From NCBI RefSeq assembly GCF_965363235.1, contig NC_134841.1, forward strand, positions 49,497,078 through 49,561,077: 64,000 nt of DNA. The letters run 5' to 3'. The notes under the pieces were generated by a model. The model saw only the letters and a program-made list of their open reading frames with translations, made no database searches and was not told the origin of the DNA. Both the position numbers and the translations under genes were made by a program. Positions 9,417 through 56,581 of the stretch are shown here, one piece after another (within the stretch, counting starts at the first letter, position 1; the number at the start of each line of letters is the position of its first letter). Origin of the DNA: Mytilus galloprovincialis (lineage: Eukaryota > Mollusca > Bivalvia > Mytilida > Mytilidae).

Positions 9417-12042
9417 ATGCAGCATTGTAAACAGAGTGATTTTAATCCATTAGACATCTTAGCCACAGCTGCTGCATTGAAACAGACTGATAAACCTGAA
9501 ACGAAACAAAAAATTGTTATTGTCAAACCAAAAGAAGGAGTCAAAATCATAAATCCTAAAGATCATGCAACCTCCTCATGTTCAACAAATGAGAAAAAGA
9601 CAAACACAAAACCTATTGGATTGATTCGGACTACTAGCTTTGTTGAAGATGGTGTGAAAAAAGTCAAACTTACTATAAGTTCGGAGTTGGAGAAAATGCT
9701 CAATGAGCATAATTATGGAAGTATACAAAAAGTAAGCTCAGGAAATAAAACAGTTCTAAAATTGCCAGATGTTTTGTCCTTAGGGAATGATAAGAAAGTT
9801 ATTGTAAAACTTGTTGACAAATCAGGTGATCATGTGAACCGTGACCAGTTATTGGCAGGTGTAAATAGTACTGATAAAGATAGCCCCAAGGAAACGACTA
9901 CATCAAATCAAGAGAGTGGAAATGATGGGCACAAAGAGAATAAATCTGACCAAGTATGCGATGGTCAAAATACAGAGACATTGTCCGAAGATTTAGATAC
10001 AAAATTGCAGTCTTTAAAGGAAAGTAATCTGTCAGTTGAAGATCTAAGGAATGATTTAATCTTAGATCATGAAAATGGTGAATTAAAACATGTAGATTCA
10101 GAGGAGAGTTTGACTGAGAGCACTGGGAGAAAGGAATCCTGCTCCAGTTATACTGTACCAGTCTGTAAACCAGTTCAAATTGAGGATTTTGATGTTTGTA
10201 ATGAGAGGATAGACTCTGATATCAGGTCACCTGTTTATGAGGATATTGATTTTAATGAATCACATAAAACTCCACCCAATGATCAAACTATATTGGAATC
10301 TAATACAAACAGTGATCAGATTCTAAATATAAAACAGTCGATTGAAGAAGAAGAAGAAGAAAATCATGATCAAGACACAGCATTATTGACGAATACAGAA
10401 TATTCAATATCTACATGGTCAGATAAAGAGAATAAAATATTGGAGAAAGATGGAAAAAATCAATATGGTGATAATGAGATACTACCTGGTAAAGTAGACA
10501 CAGGTGCTAATAACATAGACAGATGTGACATGGGGAAGTCACAAGTTCTGGATAAAGTTGAAACATATGCCGCTGTTCATGAAAAACAGACTAACATTGA
10601 AGATACTTCGGAGGAAAGTCCATCCCTGGATAGTTATTCAAGCAGAGCCACATTTTCAATGCAAGATCATGAGTATGCTGAGAAATATTGTGATGACTCA
10701 TCAGAAAAAAGAAATGACAAACTCCATGATTTACATCTAGTAAATGAATTTTCACAAGACAGTGGCTTTAGTGATTCAGGATTATCACCTGACGGTTTAG
10801 AATCGAGAACATATAGACGTGATAGTCCATCTTTAATACCTGTCAAAACAGACATGTTACCTTCGTTTGATTTGAACGATGTCAATAAGGCAAGAGACGC
10901 AATTGTTGCTTTGGTAAATTCTAATGCGCTACCAGTCGTACCTCATGGGACTAATTCACAATCTAGTTCAACTAAAACATCACCAAAAGTTGGTAAATTT
11001 TCTATCGGAACATTTGCTTCTGTCTGTAACTCCACTCTTGGTCTTCAATCACCAGAAAAGAGTCAAATTGCATTCGGGCAAAGGATTGCCACTTCTCTTC
11101 TATCAAACAATATTTGTCAACAAAACAAAAGTGAAAGTGCTGTAACATGTGTTCAGAATAATTCAACTGAACATATTGAACATGATCATGACTATAGTCT
11201 TCCATATCATGCCAGACCAAGTAATATACCGTTCTCAGTTCAAAAGGTCAACAAGGAAATAGCTGGCAAGGGGAAAACAAAGGAGAAAAAGAGTGATGGA
11301 AATGAAAAAAGAATAAAGCGCTCAGGAAGTTCAGAGTCAAAAGAAGACAAAACATTTGATTTGATAACTGGAGAAAGTGAGAAAAAGAGCAACAAAAGTG
11401 AAAAACTGGCAGAATTCCTTAAGAATAGTACATCAGACTCAAAATTAAAAATTCAAGGAAGTTACAAAGATGATTTCGTTTATTTTCTTAATACAAATTT
11501 CCGTAGTCGAAGGAGAGCTAGTCAAGACATTCCACCGTCAGTACCATCAGATAAAATTATTGTGCCACTTCCTAAACCAGGGGATATCATTGTGCCCCAC
11601 TTGACAAACGAGGATTTGGAAGCCATTCGATTGGGTAAACATAGCACATTGTCAAATGGTCCACACGCTAATGGAAGTCTGTCATCAACAGTAACACAGA
11701 CGTCATTACCAGCCACTGTTTCTTCCGCGCTGAGAAACCAAACAAATGGCGTTATGACAGATATTGAAAGTGGAATCATTAATACAATATTAAGTATGGA
11801 AACTGAACCATGTGCCGATACCACTGACCCTGTATTGTTTGGAAATGGAAATGAAAATTTTAATATCAATTTCTCCGATCAGTTGACACCTGAACAAATG
11901 GAAATTTTATATAGTGCTGTGGATCAAGTCCAGAGTATTGACAGCACATCAAGTGATAAAGAAAACGCTGGTGACACAATACAGGGCAAAGGCGTGACGT
12001 CTGACCTGAATGGGGAACCAGCTTGTGTGGAAATCAAAACAG
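9417..12042 (+). CDS. SKI/SNO/DAC-like nuclear protein, coding exon 1 of 3
   Basis: This exon encodes residues 1-875 of a predicted 1435-residue protein (join 9417-12042, 17563-18112, 19857-20988; 4308 bases, frame kept at both junctions). It follows a splice acceptor at 9380-9381. The 9417 ATG is the first in this frame, since an in-frame TGA lies at 9405-9407; two out-of-frame ATGs at 9389 and 9396 precede it. The product is mostly low-complexity, Ser/Asp/Glu/Lys-rich and probably disordered, with an acidic run (EEEEEEN) near residue 308, a lysine-rich stretch near 620-680 and a more ordered patch containing KIIVPLPKPGDIIVP near 715-730. The exon ends at CAG|GTATGT; reading past it meets a stop at 12090. 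I do not recognise a specific orthologue. The later exons suggest a transcription corepressor. Confidence 0.85.
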
Positions 12043-12995
12043 GTATGTACAAGGCTAAAATTATAAATTCAATGAACCCATTCAACTATTAAAAGCTTTT
12101 AAGTATGTATTTGATAACCAGAAAAGGTTTGTATGTGGTTCACTGATAATAAATACCTTGGCCTTGGGGAAATTTATCTTGAAATTCAAATAATATATAT
12201 TATAACAGAAATAACCTAATAAAAATACAACATCCTGTACATTTTATATCAGAAATTGTTCATCTTGTCAGATTCAGACAGTTCATTTAAAAGTGTAACC
12301 AAATTTTCAGAATTATATGATTATAACAGCAACTTTAATCTGTTATTATAGTCTGGGACTTTAAGCTGAAGTGTTACTCTACAGTACGTGCTGTAATTTA
12401 AAAATTCTTCAAAATATTTGGATAATATTGACAAAGTAAAATTAATTGGCTGCTTGAGCTAGTTTATTCAAAGCTATTTGGTGCATACTGCTTTAAGTAC
12501 CAATAAAAATCAATTTACAAGTTTAATAGTAACAAGATCAGGATATTGGTCTTTATTAAAATATCCAATGTTCATGAATATTGGCCCAGATAGCACCAAA
12601 TGGTAAATCTAGGTGCAATTTGCATAAATTTTATTCCGAATATTTTTTCTGTCAACTTTTAAAAATAATTACTCCTATTCACCTGATTCACTGCATTGTT
12701 TAAAACAAAGCAAGTTTTTCCTAAGCACATGTGTTGTTCCTTTATTTAATCATTGTCTGAAATTAAAAGGGTAATTATATATAAGCCAATTATATATTGA
12801 TTTGAGGCCTTTAGCCAAACAGAAAGTACATGGTTTTCTTTGTTTTGAATTTAATATTTTATAACACAGTTATGTAATATTATACATGTATTAGAATCTA
12901 TTCATTTCTTGTTCTGAATAAGCTCACATGAAACAAAGAACATAACATGAAACCAAATAAAAAATAAGTATAAAAAGTTGTTCATAACAACTAAA

Positions 12996-19590: not shown

Positions 19591-19856
19591 AACACAACAT
19601 TAAGTTGAGGCAGTCCCATTGCATTGATAGTGTTTTTATCATGTTTGTGTTACTTTTTGAAGTTTTCTTGTATAAATTCCATTGTTTATGTAATATTATA
19701 ATGAAGTTATTTACATCAAACAAACGGAATCACTCATTTTCATCATATCAATTTCACAGAAATAACTAAATTTTCTATCACCATGCATGTATATCATGTA
19801 TACCATGTACTTGTTTCTATCAACATTTATCTAGATCTTTTTGGTTTTTTTTTCAG

Positions 19857-20988
19857 TGAGAAGACAAGGACAGTTGTTCCTCAGAAAAAACCTCCAGTTA
19901 TAGCGGAGCCACCTCCTCCAGCTCCACTTGGGCGAACACGTCATAAGAAGATCAATTTTCTGGAATTACTAAAAGGTGATTCAAACAGCAACTCCACAGA
20001 AAATTCTGTAACAGAACATGTTGAAGAAAAGAAATCAGAAGGAAGCATTTCTGTCGTAGTGGTTCAACCCCCTGTTGGTTGGAAAAAATCGGATTCGTCA
20101 GTTAAAAAAATTGAAGTAGGAAAGAAAACTGTTAAACGCTTGCATTCAGGAAGTGAAATAAACAAAAAGAAATCAGAAGAATGTCAGACAATTGATTCTA
20201 TGGGTGATGATGATATTGAGAATAGAAATTTGACATGGCTCTGTAAAAAAAGGCAAAAGATTCCACTGAAAGTGAATAAAAAGGTCAAGAAACCAGGTTC
20301 ACTAAAAGTAAAATGGACAATTTTTAACAAAGCAAGTAGGAAAAACTTGATTAAGAAAAAGAAACAGAGGGAGGTATTATCTGTTGTGCATAAAGATATT
20401 TTACCTAATAACAGTCATTTAAACAATATACAGCCAGGCAATGTGTTCATGGATTTATATAACAATGAAAATTCTTCGTGTGTTCGTTGTTGCACATGTA
20501 ACAAGATATTTTCAATAGAGGCTTTCCTCTCACATCAGCATGATAATGGGGGTGATGGAAAACTGATTTCCGTTGTTAATCCACAAAGTTTAAGTCTCAG
20601 GGATGCATCAGATTCACAAAAGAAAATTTGGCGCAACTTTCAGCTTAAAAGGAAACGATTCAACAACAATAAAATAACAACAGTTCAAAATGGGTTACCC
20701 AAAATACAAATTGTAGAAAGACAAAATGATTTGGAGAAAAGAACTCTGATTGTTAAACCTCCGTCAAACAAATCTGTGCGTATCAGTTCTAGGAAGCGTA
20801 AACAAAAACAATTGTATCCCATCGAAAACTATTCTTATAGTTCTGTTGTTAAACACGAAGGACAAGATGCATCATCACCTTCACCCAACAAAATCATCAA
20901 AGTTTCCAATGCTCTAGCTGATAATGTCGTCACAGAGTCAAATGGACCAATATTAACAAGTTTCACTGCCTTAGAACATGATGTGTGA
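19857..20988 (+). CDS. SKI-like gene, exon 3: Cys/His motif and C-terminus
   Basis: Encodes residues 1060-1435, starting in the split Ser codon and ending at TGA 20986-20988. The exon opens with KTRTVVPQKK and a Pro-rich run, then RHKKINFLELLKGD, long lysine-rich segments, and a metal-site-like motif near residues 1267-1290: CVRCCTCNKIF followed by an H.H pair. About 50 residues on comes KKIWRNFQLKRKRF. In SKI and SnoN the SMAD4-binding SAND-like domain has a C..C and H.H site followed downstream by a conserved Trp, so the pairing with the exon 2 domain supports a SKI-type corepressor. The spacing between the two modules is much longer than in SKI itself. DNA binding and SMAD partnership are inferred only. 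Confidence 0.8.
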
Positions 20989-31990: not shown

Positions 31991-32397
31991 TGTAGATCCA
32001 TGAATATGTATATATAAAATTGAGAATGGAAATGGGGAATGTGTCAAAGAGAGAACAACCCGACCAAATAAAAAACAACAGCAGAGGGTCACCAACAGGT
32101 CTTCAATGTAGCGAGAAATTCCCGCACCCGGAGGCGTCCTTCAGCTGGCCCCTAAACAAATATATACTAGTCCAGTGATAATGAACGCCATACTAATACC
32201 TCTAACCAATGTAGTAAAGTAAACGCATAACAATACGCACATTAAAATTCAGTTCAAGAGAAATCCGAGTCTGATGTCAGAAGATGTAACCAAAGAAAAT
32301 AAACAAAATGACAATAATACATAAATAACAACAGACTACTAGCAGTTAACTGACATGCCAGCTCCAGACTTCAATTAAACTGACTGAAAGATTATGA

Positions 32398-32475
32398 TTT
32401 CATCATATGAACATCAGGCACAATCCTTCCCGTTAGGTGTTTAGTATCATACCATCATAACATATATGAGAAGAA
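32398..32475 (-). promoter_or_regulatory. SECIS-like element in 3' region of Naiad copy 1
   Basis: On the minus strand: a lower stem from TTCTTCTCATAT, the 5' core ATGA (32455-32458), upper stem GGTATGAT pairing with ATTGTGCC, apical AAA (32440-32442) and the 3' core TGAT (32413-32416). It is the counterpart of the elements at 39386-39464 and 55989-56063. Confidence 0.65.
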
Positions 32476-32519
32476 CATAACCCGTGTCATGCCAACAACT
32501 GTTTTTAGAATGAATGTGT

Positions 32520-34725
32520 TTAGTTCCGATGCAAAGACCTTATCAGTGACTCAATATTAACGCCAAAATATGCAATCTTTAATGACTTGACAACAGTATC
32601 GTAATTATATCCCTTCTTAATAAGTCTATTCAAAGGTTTTGTAAGTTTCTGAGGTGAATACTGACACCTTTGTGCTTTATAAAGAATATTACCATAAAAA
32701 ATTGGATGTGAAATACCTGAACGTATTAGAAGTCTGCATGTTGAGTTATATTTACGAATGATGTCTTTATACCGATGATAAAATTTAGTAAATGTTTTGA
32801 CTAGTTTGTGATATCGAAAACCCTGGTGTAATAATTTTTCAGTAATACATAAATTTCTCTCGTTAAAATCGAAAACATTGTTACATACACGAGCGAATCG
32901 TACAAGTTGAGATATATAAACACCGTAAGATGGTGACAAGGGAACGTCACCATCTAAAAACGGATAATTAACGATAGGAAATGAAAAATCATCCCTTTTA
33001 TCATAAATTTTAGTATTCAGCTTTCCATTAGTGATATAGATATCAAGATCGAGAAAAGGGCAGTGGTCATTGTTAGTATTAGCTTTATTTAAAGTAAGTT
33101 CAACAGGATAAATTTCATTAATATACATACTGAAGTCGTCATTATTGAGAGCCAAAATATCATCCAAATATCTAAAAGTATTATTAAATTTGTTTATCAG
33201 ATGTTGTTTCGATGGGTCTTTGCTTATTTTTGTCATAAATTGTAACTCATAACAATACAAAAACAGGTCCGCAATAAGTGGTGCACAGTTAGTCCCCATT
33301 GGAATTCCGATAATCTGACGATATACGGAATCTCCAAAGCGAACAAAAATGTTATCTAGTAAAAATTCAAGGGCATATATAGTATCAAAGCATGTCCAAT
33401 TAACATAGTTTTTTTGTTTATTGCTACTAAAAAATGACCTAAAAGAGTTTGAACATATATATTCACATTCTGATTTTTTGAATGCCCATTTAATTAGGTG
33501 TGTGAATTTTTCTTAATGAGAATGTGAGGCAATGTGGTATACAGGGTAGAAAAATCAAAACTTTGAACAGATTCAAAATCACCAATATAAGCATGCAATT
33601 TATCAAGTACTTCCAACGAGTTCTTGACACTCCAAAAGTAATTTATTCCACTATTTTCGAAGGCCTTATTGGAACAATTTATTATTAGGTTTTTAATTGT
33701 ACCAAGTGTGCTGGTAAGAAGAATAGACAATTTAGTAGTTGAACAATGGCTTGAAGACGAAATAAATCTATATTTGTAAGGGGTTTTGTGTAGCTTCGGA
33801 AGCCAATACATAGTTGGGACTTTCATTGTATTTGGCTCTGCTTGTAAAGCGGTGGCTAAAAGTTTATGTTTGTTACAGATTTCGTTTTCTAAAAATGGAG
33901 TCAGTTGGAATGTTGGCGAATTGGTGATTTCCTTTTTCAAAACCTCAATGTAAAATTTACGTCAAACAATAATAATATTATTAGCAGCTTTATCTGCCGG
34001 GACAAAAACAAATTCCTTGGCTAGTTCTTTTACTTTATGTTTGATACGAGAAATAGGTTTATTGTGGTTATTGTTTATAGTAAAATGTTCTTTAAAATGT
34101 TGAATACGTACATCAACTATCTTCATTACTGAATTAAAAAAAGAGTCCAAAGATTTTTTTGTCAGCTTTTTCCCGTTTTATCCATTTCATACAGTAAGTA
34201 TGGAGTGAGTCGTGGATGATATTACGACACTCATTCCAATTAATAATTGACGGGGGACGATATTTAGGTCCTTTACTGAGGAATGATTTTAACTCTCGGT
34301 CGCGAACGATGTTAAGGTCTCCTGTTATAACATGGGAAATGGGTCCATAAATATATTCGGAATTACTGCAATTACATGAAGTAGGTGTATTTTCACTGAT
34401 ATTAACATCTTTACACAATTGACTATAATTAAACACAAATTTCCGGGTAGATTTCTTGTAAATATAACAAATAAGAGGTAGCCCAGTATTGTCGAAATAT
34501 CCAGGAATTTGTTCTTTAACAGAATGGTCGTTAAATATACCGGCAATATTTACAAAATCAAAGCCTTTATTGACATACTTAATTTTAATAAAATGGTGTT
34601 TATGATCTTCAGGGCGATCAATTTTGGGAAATAATTTAGAATAACAATATGCCATAATAATTTGAACAATTTCATACTTAGGACTGCTATATGAAATTGT
34701 GTTGCAATCCTCCAAAATTTTAAAT
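32520..34725 (-). pseudogene. Naiad GIY-YIG/RT polyprotein, truncated and frameshifted (copy 1)
   Basis: It begins at ILEDCNTISYSSPKYE, after the endonuclease, and keeps the CxC linker (SCNCSNSEY), the PADKAANN finger motif and the reverse transcriptase through FRYLDDILALNN to the C-terminus LIRSLHRN. Two single-base frameshifts, near 34140 and near 33505 (an A run), break it. At 33962-33964 an in-frame TGA follows NNIIIV at the same place as one of the four TGA codons in the intact copy, so that TGA is shared and is not random decay. It is dead as a protein source but informative for alignment. Confidence 0.8.
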
Positions 34726-34749: not shown

Positions 34750-35338
34750 TTAGTTAGCTTTTAATTTACTGATAACAAAATCAATATTTATACCAATAAA
34801 AACAATATTCAATGATCTTATTACAGTGCGACAAGTATACATGGATCATTTCTAAATTTCCGGGCACGGTTAACAACATTTCCGTGAAAATGAGGATGTG
34901 CTATCCCGTTTGAAAGAAGTTTTCTACAGGTACAACCAAACTTCAAAACCAAATCTTTATATCTATAGAAAAATTTAGTAAAGGTTTTAAGTAATTTATG
35001 GTAACGATATCACTGGTTTAATAATTTACCCGTAATACATAGATTGCGTTCGTTAAAATAAAAAACGTCACAACAGACACGGGCATATCGAACCAGCTGT
35101 GAAATATAAACACCGTAAGATGGTGCCAAAGGAACATCACCATCTAAAATGGAAAATTAACAATAGGGAACGAAAAATCGTCTCTTTTGTCGTAAATTTT
35201 AGTGTGGAGTTTCCCGTTTAAAACCGAAATATCTAAATCCAGGAAAGAACAGTTATTACCGAATAAATTTGATTTATTTAAAGTAAGTTCCTTGGGGTAA
35301 ATTTCAGCAGTATATTGAGAAAATTCTTGATTATTTAA
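34750..35338 (-). pseudogene. Element B (older Naiad relative), RT C-terminal part
   Basis: The minus-strand frame resumes at LNNQEFSQYTAEIYP just after the TTAA MITE and runs through KIYDKRDDFSFPIVNFPF, DVPLAPSYGVYISQLV and the C-terminus NIDFVISKLKAN, with stop TAA at 34750-34752. It aligns along its length with the intact Naiad but is clearly diverged. It is broken by frameshifts and by an in-frame TGA in LLNQ-stop-YRYH, where the intact copy has Gly. Confidence 0.7.
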
Positions 35339-35906
35339 AGTCATATGAAACCTAAAATTAAAAAAAAAATATGCATTTGTTTTTATTAAAACTAAATGGA
35401 TAGTTTTCATTATACAACTTATGTACATATACTTTTTTCTGAGGAAAATTCTTTAATTTGTCCACATTTAGAAGAAGTTTACTTATTTTTAATTGCTTGC
35501 TGCCAGGAAGCAATTCGCCGACATATTTTCCGTATGCATAGTGACCTATGCGTGACCGTGCCCTCCTCGTAAAAATCCGATGATAGTAATACGCATGAAT
35601 CTGTCATTAAAATAAACAATTATCTGATTGTATATGTTAAACACGTGCTAAATACCCATGCTTTTTGTTGATTATTTACTATAAGGTGACAATCGGTAAA
35701 CTTCGGCTTCAAAACACGGCATTTAATGAGTAGCCATATTTGTTAAATCATAACAGACAGATAGAAAAAAAATTGACAATTATACGATATCTTTGCGTAA
35801 AAAACGATAAAATCGTGCACAGAGGACTAAGTTTATGATATATACATGCATTGGTTCAAGAATTGGATGAACATTATTTTTCACCAGTCACTCGTTTCTT
35901 ATGACT
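35339..35906. mobile_element. 568-bp MITE with 13-bp TIRs and TTAA target duplication
   Basis: Ends are AGTCATATGAAAC (35339-35351) and GTTTCTTATGACT (35894-35906), inverted repeats with one mismatch, flanked by TTAA at 35335-35338 and 35907-35910. Removing it with one TTAA rejoins element B between RYLDDIFSL and NNQEFSQY, exactly as in related proteins. A TTAA target suggests piggyBac-type mobilisation, although the ends are not the usual CCC type. No coding sequence. Confidence 0.75.
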
Positions 35907-36090
35907 TTAACGAAAAAATATCATCAAGATAACGGTAAGTGTTGTTGAATTTATCAATTAAATGCAATTTAGACGGGTCTTTACTGAGTTTAGTCATAAA
36001 CTGTGATTCGTAACAGTACAAAAACAAGTCTGCTATTAAAGGGGCACAATTAGTGCCCATGGGGATACCTACAACCTGTCGATAAACTTT
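35907..36090 (-). pseudogene. Element B, RT catalytic core segment
   Basis: On the minus strand this reads VYRQVVGIPMGTNCAP, a 'DLFLYCYESQF' stretch and RYLDDIFSL, that is, reverse transcriptase motifs B and C with the catalytic Asp pair. It is bounded on one side by the TTAA MITE and on the other by the inserted plus-strand Naiad at 36091. Confidence 0.7.
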
Positions 36091-36329
36091 AGTAAAAAGT
36101 AGTATTTTAATATTCAGCCCCATTCATCTATTTAGTCAGACGTCAGTCGCTACCTTGATATACCCTATCTTTTGTTAAATTTGTCGGGTAACTTATGACA
36201 ATAAGCATTTGACGTCTTGAGCCGAACAGTTTTATCATTTTTACACAATTTAATCTACTGTGTGATGGTTCATATTCTGGACGCCAGTCTTTGCTCCTTT
36301 GTAATAAATCTACATACCAAAAAACAAAT

Positions 36330-39300
36330 ATGAAGCTTAGAAATGGAAAAATATTAAATACTAAACTCGTTCAAAGGGTATCTACACGTCTCAATCTTCA
36401 GAATCGCTTATCTAAAAATACTACAATAGCTAACGTTTTTAACAATAAAAATCGTGGTTACCCTTCTATCGATAAGTGTCATGCCAAAAAATGACTTACG
36501 TGTCCCCGTCTTTCCACCAACAATACAGTAAGGTCCACATTTAATGGTCGCACATTTTCTCTAAATTTTGAAACTGATATTACTTGAAAAACAAACAGTA
36601 TTATTTATTTACTCACATGAAACAAACCGGGATGCGGTATTCAGTACGTAGGTGAAACTGGGCGATATTTATCTAAACGCACGCAAGAACACCTGTATCG
36701 TTTTAAAAGACCCAATAAATTCAAAAGTATCATTTATCAACATCTTAAGAAGCACAGTCATCCTATTAAATATTTAACAGTTCAACCTTTAGAAGTAGTA
36801 AATAAGCAGCCTGGTGAATCTCATTCCAAGTTTGTACGATCACGAAAAATAAATGAATTAAATTGGATTAAAAAATTACAGACAGTCTACCCTCTCGGTC
36901 TTAATGATAATATCATGGGAATTGGCAATATATCAAGAACCGATTCTGTTAACATTTTGGATATAGTTTCTAAAACTGTTCGTAAAAATCGTTCTCATGG
37001 ACGCAGAAAAAATCGCAATCAAAGAAAATTTCGGACCAACCATACAAATATTTCGGACCTAATTTCCATTTCAAAAAACAACGGCAGACATTATCTGTTA
37101 ACCAAGCTTTGTTCTTTACCTATAAATAAATTAAATAAAATTTTAGAGGATTGCAACACAATTTCATATTACAGTCCTAAGTATGAAATTGTCCAAATTA
37201 TAATGGCATATTGTTATTCTAAACTGTTTCCAAAAATTGATCGCCCTGAAGATCATAAAAAACATTTTATTAAAATAAAGTATGTCAATAAAGGTTTTGA
37301 TTTTGTAAATATTGCCGGTATTTTTAACGACCATTCTGTTAAAGACCAAATTCCTGGATATTTTGATAATACTGAACTCCCTCTCATTTGTTATATTTAC
37401 AAGAAATCCACCCGAAAATATGTGTTTAATTATAGCCAATTGTGTAAAGATGTAAATATCACTGAAAATACACCTATGTCGTGTAATTGCAGTAATTCAG
37501 AATACACCTATGGACCAATTTCCCATGTTATAACAGGAGACCTTAACATCGTTCGCGACCGAGAGTTAAAATCATTCCTCAGTAAAGGACCTAAATATCG
37601 TCCCCCGTCAACTATTAACTGGAATGAGTGTCGTAATATCATCAACGACTCACTCCGCGCCTACTGTTTGAAATGGGTAAAACGGGAAAAAGCTGACAAA
37701 AAATCTTTGGACTCTTTTTTTAATTCAGTAATGAAGATAGTTGATATTCGAATACAACATTTTAAAGAACATTTTACCCTCAACAAAAACTATAAAAACC
37801 CTATTTCGCGTATCAAAAATAAACTAACAGAACTAGCCAAGGAATTTGTTTTTGTCCCGGCTGATAAAGCTGCGAATAATATCATTATTGTTTGACGTAA
37901 ATTTTATATAGAAGTTCTGCAAAAGGAAATCACGAATTCACCAACATTCCAACTGACTTCATTTTCAGAAAACGACATCTGTAACAAACATAAACTTTTA
38001 GCTACTTCTTTACAAGCAGAACCAAACACAATGAAAGTCCCAACTATGTACTGGCTTCCGAAGCTGCACAAAAAACCTTACAAATATAGATTTATTTCAT
38101 CTTCCAGCCATTGTTCAACTACTAAATTGTCTGTTTTACTTACTAGTACACTTGGTACAATAAAAAACCTGATAATAAATTGTTCAAATAAGGCCTTTGA
38201 AAATAGTGGAATTAATTACTTTTGGAGTGTCAAAAACTCGTTGGAAGTACTTGATAAATTGCATGCATATATTGGTGATTTTGAATCTGTTCAAAGTTTT
38301 GATTTTTCTACCCTATATACCACTTTGCCTCATATTCTTATTAAGAAAAAATTCACATCCCTAATTAACTGGGCATTTAAAAAGTCGGAATGCGAGTACA
38401 TATGTTCAAACTCTTTTAGATCATTTTTTAGTAGCAATAAACAAAAGAACTATGTCAATTGGACATGCTTTGATACTATTTATGCACTTGAATTTTTACT
38501 TGATAACATTTTTGTTCGCTTTGGAGATTCCGTATATCGTCAAGTTATTGGAATTCCAATGGGGACTAACTGTGCACCACTTATTGCGGACCTGTTTTTG
38601 TATTGTTATGAGTTACAATTTATGACTAAAATTAGCAAAGACCCATCAAAACAACATTTGATACAAAAATTTAACAATACTTTTAGATATTTGGATGATA
38701 TATTGGCTCTAAATAATGACGACTTCAGTATGTATACTAAAGAAATTTATCCTGTAGAACTTACTTTAAATAAAGCTAATGATAACAATGACCACTGCCC
38801 TTTCCTCGATCTTGATATCTATATCATAAACGGGAAACTTAATACAAAAATTTATGATAAAAGAGATGATTTTTCATTTCCTATTGTTAATTATCCATTT
38901 TTAGATGGTGACGTTCCCTTGTCACCATCTTATGGTGTTTATATATCTCAACTTGTACGATTCGCTCGTGTATGTAACAATGTATTAGATTTTAGCGAGA
39001 GAAATTTATGTATTACTGAAAAATTATTACACCAGGGTTTTCGATATCACAAACTGGTCAAAACATTTACTAAATTTTATCACCGGTATAAGGAAATAAT
39101 TCGTAAATATAACTCAACATGCAGACATCTTATACGTTCAGGTATTTCACATCCAAAATTTTATGGAAATATTCTTTATAAAGCACAAAAATGTCAGTAT
39201 TCTCCTCAGAAACTAACAAAACCTTTAAATAGACTTATTAAAAGGGGATATAGTTACGATACTGTTGTCAGGTCATTAAAGATTGCATATTTTGGCCTTA

Positions 39301-39338
39301 ACATTGATTCACTGATAGGGTCTTTGCATCGAAACTAA
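36330..39338 (+). CDS. Naiad GIY-YIG endonuclease-reverse transcriptase, putative selenoprotein
   Basis: One frame of 1002 codons plus TAA, broken only by TGA at 36492, 36585, 36618 and 37893 (residues 55, 86, 97 and 522). The 36330 ATG starts MKLRNGKIL. Domains in order: a small N-terminal region (CHAKK-U-LTCP); GIY-YIG endonuclease with GIQYVGETGR (103-112), Arg117, His121 and a HLKKHSH segment near 138-144; CxC linker with Cys385 and Cys387; PADKAANN finger motif just before residue 522; RT motif A FDFSTLYTTLP (Asp658); IPMGTNCAPL; catalytic YLDD (789-790). Residues 86 and 97 occupy the two Cys positions of the CCHH zinc site of Penelope-type endonucleases, and residue 522 a position usually Cys. 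The element would copy its RNA into the genome by target-primed reverse transcription. No frameshift is seen, so activity is possible. Confidence 0.85.
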
Positions 39339-39385
39339 ACACATTTATTTCTAAAAAAACAGTTGTTGGCATGACACGGGTTATG

Positions 39386-39464
39386 TTCTTCTCATATATT
39401 TTATGATAGTATGATACTAAACCCCTAACGGGAGGGATTGTACCTGATATTCATATGATGAAGA
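39386..39464 (+). promoter_or_regulatory. SECIS-like hairpin in the 3' untranslated region of Naiad copy A
   Basis: It starts 48 bases after the stop codon. Lower stem TTCTTCTCATAT pairs with ATATGATGAAGA (one bulge). After an internal loop comes 5' core ATGA (39403-39406) opposite 3' core TGAT (39445-39448), the expected site of the tandem G.A pairs. The upper stem GTATGAT pairs with ATTGTAC, an unpaired AAA (39419-39421) sits in the apical part, and a CCC/GGG mini-stem closes the top (type II-like). These are the invariant parts of eukaryotic SECIS elements, which recruit the machinery that recodes UGA as selenocysteine. Confidence 0.75.
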
Positions 39465-39977
39465 CATAATCTTTCAATCAGTTTAATTGAGGTCTGGAGC
39501 TGGCATGTCAGTTAACTGCTAGTAGTCTGTTGTTATTTATGTATTATTGTCATTTTATTTATTTTCTTTTGTTACATCTTTTGACATCAGACTCGGACTT
39601 CTCTTGAACTGAATTTTAATGTGCGTATTGTTATTCTTTTACTTTTCTACATTGGCTAGAGGTATAGGGGGAGGGTTGAGATCTCATAAACATGTTTAAC
39701 CCCGCCGCAATTTTGCGCCTGTCCCAAGTCAGGAGCCTCTGGCCTTTGTTAGTCTTGTATGATTTTAAATTTTAGTTTCTTGTGTATAATTCGGAGTTTA
39801 GTATGACGTCCATTATCACTGTACTATTATGCATATTTTAGGGGCCAGCTGAAGGACACCTACGGGTGCGGGAATTCTCGCTACATTGAAGACCCATTGG
39901 TTGCCTTCGGCTGTTGTTTGCTCTATGGTCGGGTGGTTGTCGCTTTGACATATTCACCATTTCCTTTCTCAATTTTA

Positions 39978-40580
39978 TTTGTTGCCGAAACGTACATAAA
40001 TATCATCAAGGAGAAAATTAACAGCTACAATCATCTCATCACACCTCCAATAAGTATATCTAGCATATTTACCTTTCTCATTAGAGAAGAAGGCTTTAAA
40101 TGAGTTGCAGCAAATGTATTTGCATTCAGCTTTACCAAACGACCATTTAATTAAATAGGAAAACTTTTGTTTAATAAGATAGCGTGGAAGTGCAGTGTAA
40201 AGAGTAGAAAAATCAAAACTGTCAACAGAATCAAAAGGACCATCAAAAACACGTAATTTATCTAAAATATCCAAAGAATTTTTTACACTCCAAAAATGGT
40301 TTATGCCACTATGTTTATATATTTTATTACAATAGTTTATGATAAGCTCTTTAATAGCAATTAATGAACTAGTTAAGAGCACTGAAAGATTAGTTGTAGA
40401 ACACTTACTAGAGGCCGAGATGAAACGGTATTTAAATGTTTTTTGTGTAGTTTAGGTAGCCAATACATAGTAGGGACCTTCAAATGTTCAGAAGAAGCCT
40501 TAAGCTTTGATGTCGTTGTGATATGTTTGTTTACTATATGACTCTCTGTGGAGCGGATGAACTTGAATGTAAATGAATTT
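39978..40580 (-). pseudogene. Element B, RT N-terminal part
   Basis: The minus strand reads KVPTMYWLPKLHKKH, then (after a frameshift near 40435) a segment up to INHFWSVKNSLDILDKL, FDFSTLYTALPRYLIK and FLLDDIYVRFGN, where the plus-strand Naiad was inserted. Together with 35907-36090 and 34750-35338 it makes one diverged copy, truncated at its own 5' end near 40580. Confidence 0.7.
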
Positions 40581-41163
40581 AAAATTTTAAAAATTTAAAT
40601 TTAAAAAGTCGGGCTACACTAATGAAAAAGTTTAGAAAATAAGTATTAATAACTTGCGAACGTTTCAAATCCCAAGTAAACATCACTGTTCATAAGCCAT
40701 GGAATTAGCCATATCAGGCGGGTAATAATATTACACGGCAACATTTTTATCAATTATTATTAACCAATTTACTACAATATGTATAGAAATGCCCATGCTT
40801 TATAAAAGGAAAATTTCGACAACTTGCTGGTCATTATGAACGGAGAAATTGCTACAGCCAGTCATTACGAAATTTCAGTCATGCATTACGAAATCACGCC
40901 CGTGCATTTCAACCATCCTTGGCCATTATTAATACCTCGGGCATGTTACAGGGCCAATATGGAAGAGTCCGTACATTAATACTATAGTAATTGATAAAAA
41001 TGTTGTGTAATATGTCTTTCAGGTAATCATGAAGTGGTTTGAACTTTTGACAATGTACAAATAGGTGATAGTTTCAATAAAAAAAATGTATTTCATATCG
41101 TCGGATTAAAACCTGAAAGAAAGACCGGCAAAATAGCGCCAATGATTGTCAATATATCAGAAT
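40581..41163. other. Intergenic DNA, no gene seen
   Basis: Includes 'gcattacgaaatcacgcccg'-like short internal repeats around 40850-40900. No coding or RNA gene is supported. Confidence 0.4.
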
Positions 41164-46879: not shown

Positions 46880-47617
46880 ATGGCCATGGATGTGATGGCA
46901 GTGGAGAATATCATTCAAAAAGCTATTGGAAGCAAATCAGAAGTTGTGAATTTGAGTCACCGCAACATAAAAGTTCTGTCAAACAATGTTAGTCAACTAA
47001 CACATGTCATTAGACTTTTACTGAATGATAATGAGATTTTAATGCCTCCAACTGAAATTACACAGCTGTTACAATTACAGGAGCTGGTATTGAATAACAA
47101 CAAATTGACAATGTTGCCACATGGTGTTGGCAAGCTTCAGAATTTGACTTATTTGAATTTGTGTGGAAATCCACTAGGATTTCTACCTGATGAGTTCTGT
47201 GAGCTTACAAACTTGCATCAGCTTTGGTTAGTCAACTGTCAGCTGAAATCATTACCTAATGACATTGGAAACTTGAAATCACTTGAGAAGTTTAGTGTTC
47301 GTGAAAATGCACTAAGATCACTACCAAAATCTTTTTATAATTTAATATCATTACATTGGCTTTGCTTGGCAGAAAATATGTTTGAAGAATTATCATCAGA
47401 ATTTAAAGACTTTAAACAGCTAACATATTTGAATTTAAACTACAATTGTCTCGCAGAAGTGCCCAGTTGTGTTCTTGAGATGTCAGAATTAGTTACGCTA
47501 CTTTTAAAAAACAATGTTATCAAAACTGTTAGTGATGATACTGTTCTTGGTCTTGCAAAGTTAACAAAGTTTGATTTGAGAGATAATATGATTGATATAA
47601 AACCGGATCATTGGAAG
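46880..47617 (+). CDS. Leucine-rich-repeat protein, coding exon 1 of 2
   Basis: Residues 1-246 of a 295-residue protein (join 46880-47617, 51234-51383). The start has a good context (AACAATGG). After a short helix (MAMDVMAVENIIQKAI) come about nine leucine-rich repeats of about 23 residues with the pattern LxxLxLxxNxLxxLP, for example LTYLNLCGNPLGFLPDEF and LKSLEKFSVRENALRSLP. It has no signal peptide or membrane segment, so it is probably cytosolic or nuclear, resembling the SHOC2/small LRR-scaffold type. Such proteins bind partners through the concave repeat face. The exon ends at W-K with donor AAG|GTAAGT; reading on adds 18 residues of repeat-derived sequence before a stop and is not real coding. 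A specific orthologue is not recognised. Confidence 0.85.
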
Positions 47618-47669
47618 GTAAGTAAGTTAGTTTTAATACAGTATCAAGCTTCAATATTGTGTCCAAAGG

Positions 47670-48247
47670 AGTAGGTCCAGTAAGACCCCTTTTCAGCCCC
47701 AAAATATAGCAGTTTTACAAAATTATTTAAATGTAAACTTTAGTTATTTATTTGAAAGTAAAATGCTTCTGCTACATGCATATGGGCTGTTTTTGACAAT
47801 ACAATCCAGATATATCGGGTACTAGCATCATAAAGCCATGCTAAATTACTGAAATCTTCACAATTTTAGCATTTTAGTTATATTTTAGACGATTTCCGTC
47901 TTAAATGAAAGTGGCTGCAATTGTGTTCATTTTTAATATTGAAATGTAAGTTGTATTTGATGATAATACATAACATATATAAAGGTTGAGGATGAACACG
48001 GATGTGGCCACTTTCATTTGTGACAAAAACCATCTGAAAAGTGACATTTTGTGGCATATTTGATAGATTTTTCATATTTAAGCTAGAAACGGAGGGTTTT
48101 TAATGAGTAAATCAGTTAAAATCTTTTACATAAACTACGGTAATTGAATCAACTGAAATAGACACTTGAGTGTTTAAAAAGTGTCCAAAATCATTCGTCA
48201 GATGAACCAGAAATTTGAGGCCAAAATCGGCCCTTACCAGACCTACT
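47670..48247. mobile_element. MITE with AGTAGGTC ends
   Basis: The left end AGTAGGTCCAGTAAG and the right end, read inverted as AGTAGGTCTGGTAAG, match at 13 of 15 positions. It interrupts a TATACGACC-family fragment between 'caatattgtgtccaa' and 'ttgccccatctgttcagg', which are contiguous in other copies. No coding content, and no clear target duplication. Confidence 0.55.
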
Positions 48248-55012: not shown

Positions 55013-55204
55013 ATTTATTGTCAGATTGTATATTGGTACACTTCCCAGAATTGCTTTCTAAACTAGCTAACCAGCTTTCTTTATATTTAATAGGAATTGA
55101 ATCTCAGCAGGAAAATTTTATTAGGTTAGCAATTATGAAAATTATTTAATCGAAATATACATGCAAACACATACTGGGCACCACTTATTGCGGACCTGTT
55201 TTTG

Positions 55205-55942
55205 TATTGTTATGAGTTACAATTTATGACAAAAATAAGCAAAGACCCATCGAAACAACATCTGATAAACAAATTTAATAATACTTTTAGATATTTGGAT
55301 GATATTTTGGCTCTCAATAATGACGACTTCAGTATGTATATTAATGAAATTTATCCTGTTGAACTTACTTTAAATAAAGCTAATACTAACAATGACCACT
55401 GCCCTTTTCTCGATCTTGATATCTATATCACTAATGGAAAGCTGAATACTAAAATTTATGATAAAAGGGATGATTTTTTATTTCCTATCGTTAATTATCC
55501 GTTTTTAGATGGTGACGTTCCCTTGTCACCATCTTACGGTGTTTATATATCTCAACTTGTACAATTCGCTCGTGTATGTAACAATGTTTTAGATTTTAAC
55601 GAGAGAAATTTATGTATTACTGAAAAATTATTACACCAGGGTTTTCGATATCACAAACTAGTCAAAACATTTACTAAATTTTATCATCGGTATAAAGACA
55701 TCATTCGTAAATATAGCTCAACATGCAGACTTCTAATACGTTCAGGTATTTCACATCCAATTTTTTATGGTAATATTCTTTATAAAGCACAAAGGTGTCA
55801 GTATTCACCTCAGAAACTTACAAAACCTTTGAATAGACTTATTAAGAAGGGATATAATTACGATACTGTTGTCAAGTCATTAAAGATTGTATATTTTGGG
55901 GTTAATATTGAGTCACTGATAAGGTCTTTGCATCGTAACTAA
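55205..55942 (+). pseudogene. Naiad RT C-terminal half (copy 5)
   Basis: About 246 codons, undamaged, from CYELQFMTKISKDPS through FRYLDDILALNN to LIRSLHRN and TAA. It lacks the endonuclease, the linker and RT motif A, so it cannot encode an active enzyme. It serves as a good alignment partner: no UGA occurs in this half, as in the intact copy. Confidence 0.75.
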
Positions 55943-55988
55943 ACACATTTATTCTAAAAACAGTTGTTGGCATGACACGGGTTATGTT

Positions 55989-56063
55989 CTTCTCATATAT
56001 GTTATGATGGTATGATACTAAACCCCTAACGGAAAGGATTGTGCCTGATGTTCATGTGATGAA
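55989..56063 (+). promoter_or_regulatory. SECIS-like hairpin in Naiad copy 5
   Basis: Lower stem TTCTCATAT with ATGTGATGAA, 5' core ATGA (56004-56007), upper stem GGTATGAT with ATTGTGCC, apical AAA (56020-56022), 3' core TGAT (56046-56049). Compared with 39386-39464, an A-U pair has become G-U and an A/C mismatch has become a G-C pair, keeping or improving the pairing. Confidence 0.7.
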
Positions 56064-56581
56064 ATCATAATCTTTCAGTCAGTTTAATTGAAGTCTGGAG
56101 CTGGCATGTCAGTTAACTGCTAGTATTTCTGTTGTTTTTTTATGTATTATTGTCATTTTGTTTATTTTCTTTGGTTACATCTTCTGACATCAGACTCGGA
56201 TTTCTCTTGAACTGAATTTTAATGTGCGTATTGTTATGCTTTTACTTTACTACATTGGTTAGAGGTATAGGGGGAGGGTTGAGATCTCACAAACATGTTT
56301 AACCCCGCCGCATTTTTGCGCCTGTCCCAAGTCAGGAGCCTCTGGCCTTTGTTAGTCTTGTATTATTTTAATTTCAGTTTCTTGTGTACAATTTGGAAAT
56401 TAGTATGGCGTTCATTATCACTGGACTAGTATATATTTGTTTAGGGGCCAGCTGAAGGACGCCTCCGGGTGCGGGAATTTCTCGCTACATTGAAGACCTG
56501 TTGGTGACCCTCTGCTGTTGTTTTTTATGTGGTCGGGTTGTTGTCTCTTTGACACATTCCCCATTTCCATTCTCAATTTTA

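Follow-up and report, generated by a model that had tools for sequence, protein, structure and literature searches.

A Naiad-kind Penelope-like retroelement with four in-frame UGA codons, a probable selenoprotein polymerase, in the mussel Mytilus galloprovincialis

The DNA analyzed here, referred to as the window, comprises 64,000 nucleotides of contig NC_134841.1 of Mytilus galloprovincialis (assembly GCF_965363235.1, positions 49,497,078 to 49,561,077 of the forward strand) and carries a retroelement with a single ORF (Table 1). The only internal stops of this ORF are four TGA triplets (36492, 36585, 36618 and 37893), and neither TAA nor TAG occurs within it. The original prediction had described an otherwise continuous frame of 1002 codons and a protein similarity that passes unshifted across every TGA; the first point was confirmed by translation and the second by protein alignments, in which the same frame is kept throughout. 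Two further copies of the element occur in the window, one of which had been described as frame-shifted and indeed matches in three pieces and two frames (34722-32014, minus strand). An older, diverged relative with a broken frame flanks the element on both sides (34753-36114 and 39981-40588, both on the minus strand; 48-76% identity depending on the piece), and the young element appears to have been inserted into it. Elsewhere the window contains an open frame of 891 aa without Pfam match at E<=0.01 (9417-12092, plus strand), a frame with a c-SKI Smad4-binding domain (19783-20988, plus strand) and a frame with leucine-rich repeats (46880-47674, plus strand).

Table 1. Features of the element and of its neighboring copies, in window coordinates.
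Feature	Position	Strand	Remarks
5'-truncated, frame-shifted copy, subfamily B-like	32014..34722	-	TGA kept at site 4; SECIS match 32404-32468
Remaining 5' UTR	36094..36329	+	about 146 nt missing upstream relative to full copies
Single ORF	36330..39338	+	ATG to TAA (39336-39338), 1002 codons, four in-frame UGA
Domain order of the ORF	36330..39338	+	N-terminal GIY-YIG endonuclease, CxC linker, telomerase-like reverse transcriptase
UGA 1, residue 55, inferred selenocysteine	36492..36494	+	Cys columns in relatives; TGA in copies
UGA 2, residue 86, inferred selenocysteine	36585..36587	+	Cys columns in relatives; TGA in copies
GIY-YIG endonuclease domain, approximate	36600..36860	+	transferred from homolog P0041 (107-193)
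UGA 3, residue 97, inferred selenocysteine	36618..36620	+	end of first GIY-YIG strand (91-97, model)
CxC motif, residues 385-387	37482..37490	+	CNC in the window copy; residue 385 is stop/Trp in many relatives
UGA 4, residue 522, inferred selenocysteine	37893..37895	+	Cys columns; relatives' ends at 521; TGA in copies
Reverse transcriptase core, approximate	38037..38819	+	RVT_1 in homologs; telomerase matches of the model
3' UTR and element 3' end	39339..39978	+	end of matching among copies
SECIS element (RF00031)	39393..39457	+	54 nt after the stop codon
5'-truncated copy, subfamily B-like	55173..56581	+	SECIS match 55994-56058

The limits of the element were placed by comparison with its copies in the same genome. 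Upstream of 36094, 16 fetched copies part from the window copy and share a common sequence of their own; full copies elsewhere are longer by about 146 nt on the 5' side, and a partial copy in tandem often precedes them. By this comparison the window copy has lost the outer part of its 5' UTR, its first nucleotide lying near 36094. The 3' end is common to the family, since matching ceases at 39977-39984 in 40 of 43 copies. Among the sister copies the 5' truncation is variable and many have a truncated tandem copy upstream, that is, a pseudo-LTR (e.g., L021, L026, L031), which is absent from the window copy itself. The earlier description of this copy as undamaged and possibly active was thus borne out for the reading frame and not for the 5' end: lacking the 5'-most nucleotides, it may be silent despite the intact frame.

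The window protein alone gave no Pfam match, and its assignment as a GIY-YIG endonuclease plus reverse transcriptase (RT) was consequently made by homology. Among 44 aligned members of the family, GIY-YIG (PF01541) was detected in 31 and RVT_1 in 20, and in P0041 the two domains follow one another in this order (107-193 and 625-827). The CNC motif sits between endonuclease and RT, and its second cysteine, residue 387, is Cys in all 149 aligned residues. An AlphaFold2 model of the protein (mean pLDDT 86.8, pTM 0.68) found telomerase reverse transcriptases (7trd, 6zdq, 3du5 and others) as its 16 best PDB matches, with E-values of 1.6e-10 to 2.5e-7. This kinship is one of fold alone: the TM-score by query is 0.25-0.32, sequence identity is 11-12%, and a profile search of PDB sequences returned 0 matches. 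Telomerase, unlike the element, is not known to carry a GIY-YIG endonuclease. An endonuclease placed before the RT, the CxC motif, the pseudo-LTR, the 5' truncation and the telomerase-like RT identify a Penelope-like element with permuted domains. Its anatomy is of the Naiad kind when compared with the published traits of that group, which are an N-terminal GIY-YIG followed by RT, a CxC motif, a tandem pseudo-LTR arrangement and multiple in-frame UGA codons that specify selenocysteine (Sec). Selenoprotein Naiads were reportedly described in clams and spiders by Craig et al. in 2021; the family of the window element appears to share the traits named above, and it differs in its host, a mytilid mussel. 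A CCHH motif in the endonuclease and an IFD in the RT are also counted among the features of Naiads.

The genome (1.385 Gb in 331 contigs) was searched with residues 98-521 of the protein, which produced 8885 first-look candidates; the best 99 were scored, a sample biased toward intact copies by this choice. The top score was shared by 13 of the 99 places, including that of the window, which are identical over 424 residues, and on this identity the family is judged to be young and recently multiplied. Relative to the window copy the members fall into two subfamilies, A (about 99.5% identical) and B (about 92%). Mapping of 47 further copies onto the window copy showed TGA at sites 1 to 4 in 41/41, 43/44, 45/45 and 46/47 cases, respectively, the exceptions being one GGA at site 2 and one TGC at site 4. 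TAA or TAG, which would have spoken for random decay, occurs at none of the four sites in this best-scoring sample. Across the frame, 13 of 48 mapped loci (the window's included) have neither gap nor extra stop, a count to which insertions are invisible. The comparison of the window copy with 18 B copies gave a dN/dS of 0.100 overall and of 0.087, 0.026, 0.100 and 0.103 for residues 1-54, 56-96, 98-521 and 523-1002, indicating that the protein past each UGA was under purifying selection. Within subfamily A the overall value is 0.15; segment 56-96 is reversed there (1.56), on 2 synonymous and 10 other changes, which are too few to weigh.

The sites occupied by UGA were then compared with those of other proteins of the family. 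In an alignment of the best 120 of 329 matches to the query, with counts taken over the rows that have a letter at the site, Cys stands at sites 55, 86, 97 and 522 in 43/45, 44/45, 48/51 and 107/118 rows, and Trp at 522 in 8/118. The coincidence of all four TGA with Cys columns of the relatives is more than expected by chance; a rough null gave P of about 8e-5, a value that is indicative only, since the 40 homologs used had been preselected for Cys at all four sites. Two further searches enlarged the set to 227 public proteins, in which stop or Trp states are read from the protein and not from the codon; one protein with <100 aligned residues was omitted from the residue counts. By projection, the C-terminal ends of 37 of the 227 fall at 521, just before site 4, and those of 26 at 384, before the first Cys of CxC, with the last residue itself aligned in 37/37 and 14/26 cases; the searches were made with the window element, which favors ORFs bounded by its own stops. 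These ends recur at identities down to about 40%. Trp is also concentrated at particular sites: it accounts for 37 of 463 residues at 55, 86, 97, 385 and 522 and for none of the 711 residues in seven further columns of conserved Cys (Fisher p 4.5e-16, calculated over related and hence non-independent rows). P0125 (97% identity), P0192, P0166, P0193 and P0196 have Trp at 55, 86 and 97, and P0135 (42%) has Trp at 86, 97, 385 and 522 and Cys at 55. Trp as a genuine residue of these sites was rejected because it occurs at recoded sites only. Most simply, a gene caller set to the ordinary code would stop at TGA and one set to code 4 would write Trp. The distribution of Trp among the relatives suggests at least five alternative UGA sites in the group, of which the window element has four, with Cys at 385.

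Searches were extended to viral contigs, where relatives were not found, and to genome contigs, where bacterial assemblies yielded five loci with pieces of relatives. Residue 522 is Cys in L001 and L003, the matches at the other three do not extend to the UGA sites, and no SECIS match (E<=2) was found in any of the five. L002, L004 and L005 belong to Bathymodiolus or clam gill symbiont assemblies, and the Penelope-like pieces that they contain are probably host DNA.

A match to the whole Rfam model SECIS_1 lies in the 3' UTR of the window element, with the core AUGA / AAA / UGAU. It scores 30.9 bits, below the gathering score of 35, with E-values of 0.0033 (5 kb against all 4227 families) and 0.042 (64 kb). 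Over the 64-kb window SECIS_1 gave only three matches at E<=2, all in the same place behind three element 3' ends, the other two belonging to the neighboring copies at 55994-56058 (25.8 bits) and 32404-32468 (25.5 bits). The usual B sequence scores 32.3 bits and the B sequence with a changed core 23.7. The region is contained in 39 further copies (22 A and 17 B; in the remaining eight of the 47 it lies outside the fetched or aligned stretch), of which 39 have AUGA and the apical CUAAAC and 38 have CUGAU. The folding energies of the hairpins are not unusually stable relative to the null (z -0.18, -1.51 and -1.03), and subfamilies A and B are too alike for covariation to serve as proof. With unexceptional minimum free energies, the case for a SECIS rests on the covariance model, the position and the conservation.

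The same genome also provides a Cys-type counterpart. At L014 a copy of subfamily A adjoins an older relative on the opposite strand, with 37-41% identity; the frame of this relative (L014/L057) is open over 441-936, and its codons are TGT at 522 and TGC at 385, the N-terminal sites not having been found. In L057, which extends approximately 3.4 kb past the end of the relative's match, no SECIS_1 match (E<=5) was detected, whereas the neighboring A copy gave one; this in-genome control consists of one element. Together with P0077 and P0119 of Pinctada imbricata, the Cys-type relatives are similar to the window protein over the shared parts (about 33-41% identity) and have Cys at the readable recoded sites; the same-genome copy has no SECIS match, in contrast to the combination of UGA and SECIS in the window element. 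A change of the genetic code throughout the genome was rejected, given the TGT and TGC used at 522 and 385 by the relative in the same genome. These data fit a use of UGA as Sec that would be a property of the element family and its SECIS rather than of the genome's code.

The window copy is therefore very probably a young, multi-copy Naiad-kind Penelope-like retrotransposon whose single protein is a selenoprotein, the four UGA codons being read as Sec. The original prediction, which had suggested a selenoprotein polymerase and a further Naiad case, is supported by the TGA codons of the copies, the Cys columns of the relatives and the SECIS element; the two outcomes that would have counted against it, TAA/TAG or random codons at the four sites of other copies and a close copy whose frame stops at the first TGA and has no SECIS, did not appear, given the near-uniform TGA and the hairpin described above. 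The element is a new, well-supported example of the selenoprotein Naiads, a kind already reported in clams and spiders. In the mechanism proposed, the SECIS hairpin of the 3' UTR would recruit the SECIS-binding protein of the host, the selenocysteine elongation factor and Sec-tRNA, the UGAs at 55, 86, 97 and 522 would be decoded as Sec and translation would proceed to the TAA; the endonuclease would then nick the target and the telomerase-like RT copy the RNA there. Both the insertion of Sec by the host machinery and its chemical use are inferred. In the structural model, the location of the sites, which include the Cys-rich entrance of the endonuclease and a strand end before the RT core, suggests metal binding or a Cys/Sec pair.

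Repeated recoding of UGA appears to be within the reach of such hosts. Two deiodinases of Mytilus coruscus are reported to have a SECIS and an in-frame TGA that specifies Sec (PMC8481496), and Sec counts of 10 in human, 46 in oyster and 132 in one bivalve are reported for selenoprotein P (PMC8230778). Bivalve selenoprotein P resembles the element in carrying many UGA codons in one mRNA in molluscs; selenoprotein P is a selenium protein of the host, whereas the window element encodes a retroelement enzyme. A literature search gave no title on selenoprotein retroelements among the matches listed, from which absence is not implied, the 2021 report on Naiads being of this kind.

An alternative to the plain selenoprotein reading is a dual use of the codons, in which the UGAs would act mainly as brakes: most ribosomes would stop and release short endonuclease fragments, rare Sec insertion would yield the full polymerase, and copy number would be kept in check. 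Three UGAs lie within the first 97 codons, and recoding of UGA competes with termination in selenoproteins generally, which counts in favor of this view. It is compatible with the main reading rather than opposed to it, and the confinement of UGA to Cys columns makes the sites look chosen for the protein and not scattered; as the principal role of the codons we consider it unlikely. A generic read-through or near-cognate decoding of UGA as Cys or Trp, without selenocysteine, is very unlikely. The amino acid inserted is invisible from DNA, and the hairpin is below the gathering cut-off and not unusually stable; against this, a rightly placed SECIS-type hairpin occurs in each of the 39 other copies in which the region is contained, with an altered core base in one of them, and no SECIS match stands beside the one same-genome Cys-type relative. 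Moreover, the Cys columns fit a Sec/Cys exchange and not Trp, and four such events in succession would presumably leave almost no full product. Ordinary decay, that is, four nonsense mutations that by chance are all TGA in a dead copy, can be dismissed with near certainty: TGA is one step from TGT or TGC and several mapped copies do have additional TAA, TAG or TGA stops, but the same four TGA are kept in nearly all of the other copies, which come from two subfamilies, all four lie on conserved Cys columns, the sequence beyond them has a dN/dS of 0.10, the element has a SECIS match and ORF ends at site 4 recur to about 40% identity.

The history of Cys/UGA exchange within the family was approached through a tree of residues 177-384, built from 155 of 228 rows including that of the window (rows with <130 of the 208 columns were left out). 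It is a quick tree with SH-aLRT supports only, in which 49 of 152 inner branches are starred and 52 are left open as weakly supported, and its states are read from Cys, Trp or the projected ORF end and not from codons. Every one of the 69 rows scored as stop or Trp at either 385 or 522 sits within a single group (79 rows, SH-aLRT 94); the other ten members are one row in which both sites are Cys and nine that are not fully readable. The 76 rows outside the group include 73 with Cys at both sites, one with Cys at 522 (385 unread) and two that are unreadable. The minimum number of changes on this tree is at least 2 for the state of 522, a lower bound because rows that stop at 384 have no readable state at 522, and at least 13 for that of 385. 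P0001, P0002 and P0005, which begin past 385 (at 413, 408 and 401), have Cys at 522, so this site probably reverts more often than the tree count indicates. What is possibly new here would be the existence of one deep UGA clade in which 522 is widely kept and the CxC residue 385 undergoes repeated exchange between Cys and stop. A more far-reaching proposal, which we regard as tentative and on balance doubtful, is that the UGA elements are a single, deeply rooted clade of polymerases that depend on selenium: Sec at 522 would be an early acquisition, preserved in many lines to identities of about 40%; exchanges of Cys and Sec at 385 would number at least 13; Sec would be preferred for its function, e.g., as the reactive partner in Cys/Sec pairs; and the selenium supply of the host would gate transposition.

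Most known selenoproteins are cellular redox enzymes. A selfish polymerase dependent on several recoded UGAs stands oddly among them and raises the question of why Sec should be favored over Cys in an endonuclease and an RT. This question is testable in a family that has near-identical intact frames and a recognizable SECIS, and whose host genome also carries a Cys-type relative. The family also carries a warning for annotation, as such elements are split into false ORFs (with ends at 384 or 521) or, seemingly, given Trp by code-4 calls. An annotated protein of Mytilus edulis, the sulfotransferase 1A1-like P0184, contains a fragment of the element family at residues 259-313 (82% identity over 55 residues); it stands after the sulfotransferase domain and is probably a transposon piece absorbed into the annotation. 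Among the Cys-type relatives, P0010, P0012 and P0019 (about 1300 aa) have a whole ubiquitin carboxyl-terminal hydrolase domain C-terminal of the RT (1024-1299, 1047-1322 and 1011-1293, respectively; E 8.7e-31 to 1.1e-33), in which a retroelement polymerase is apparently fused to a deubiquitinase.
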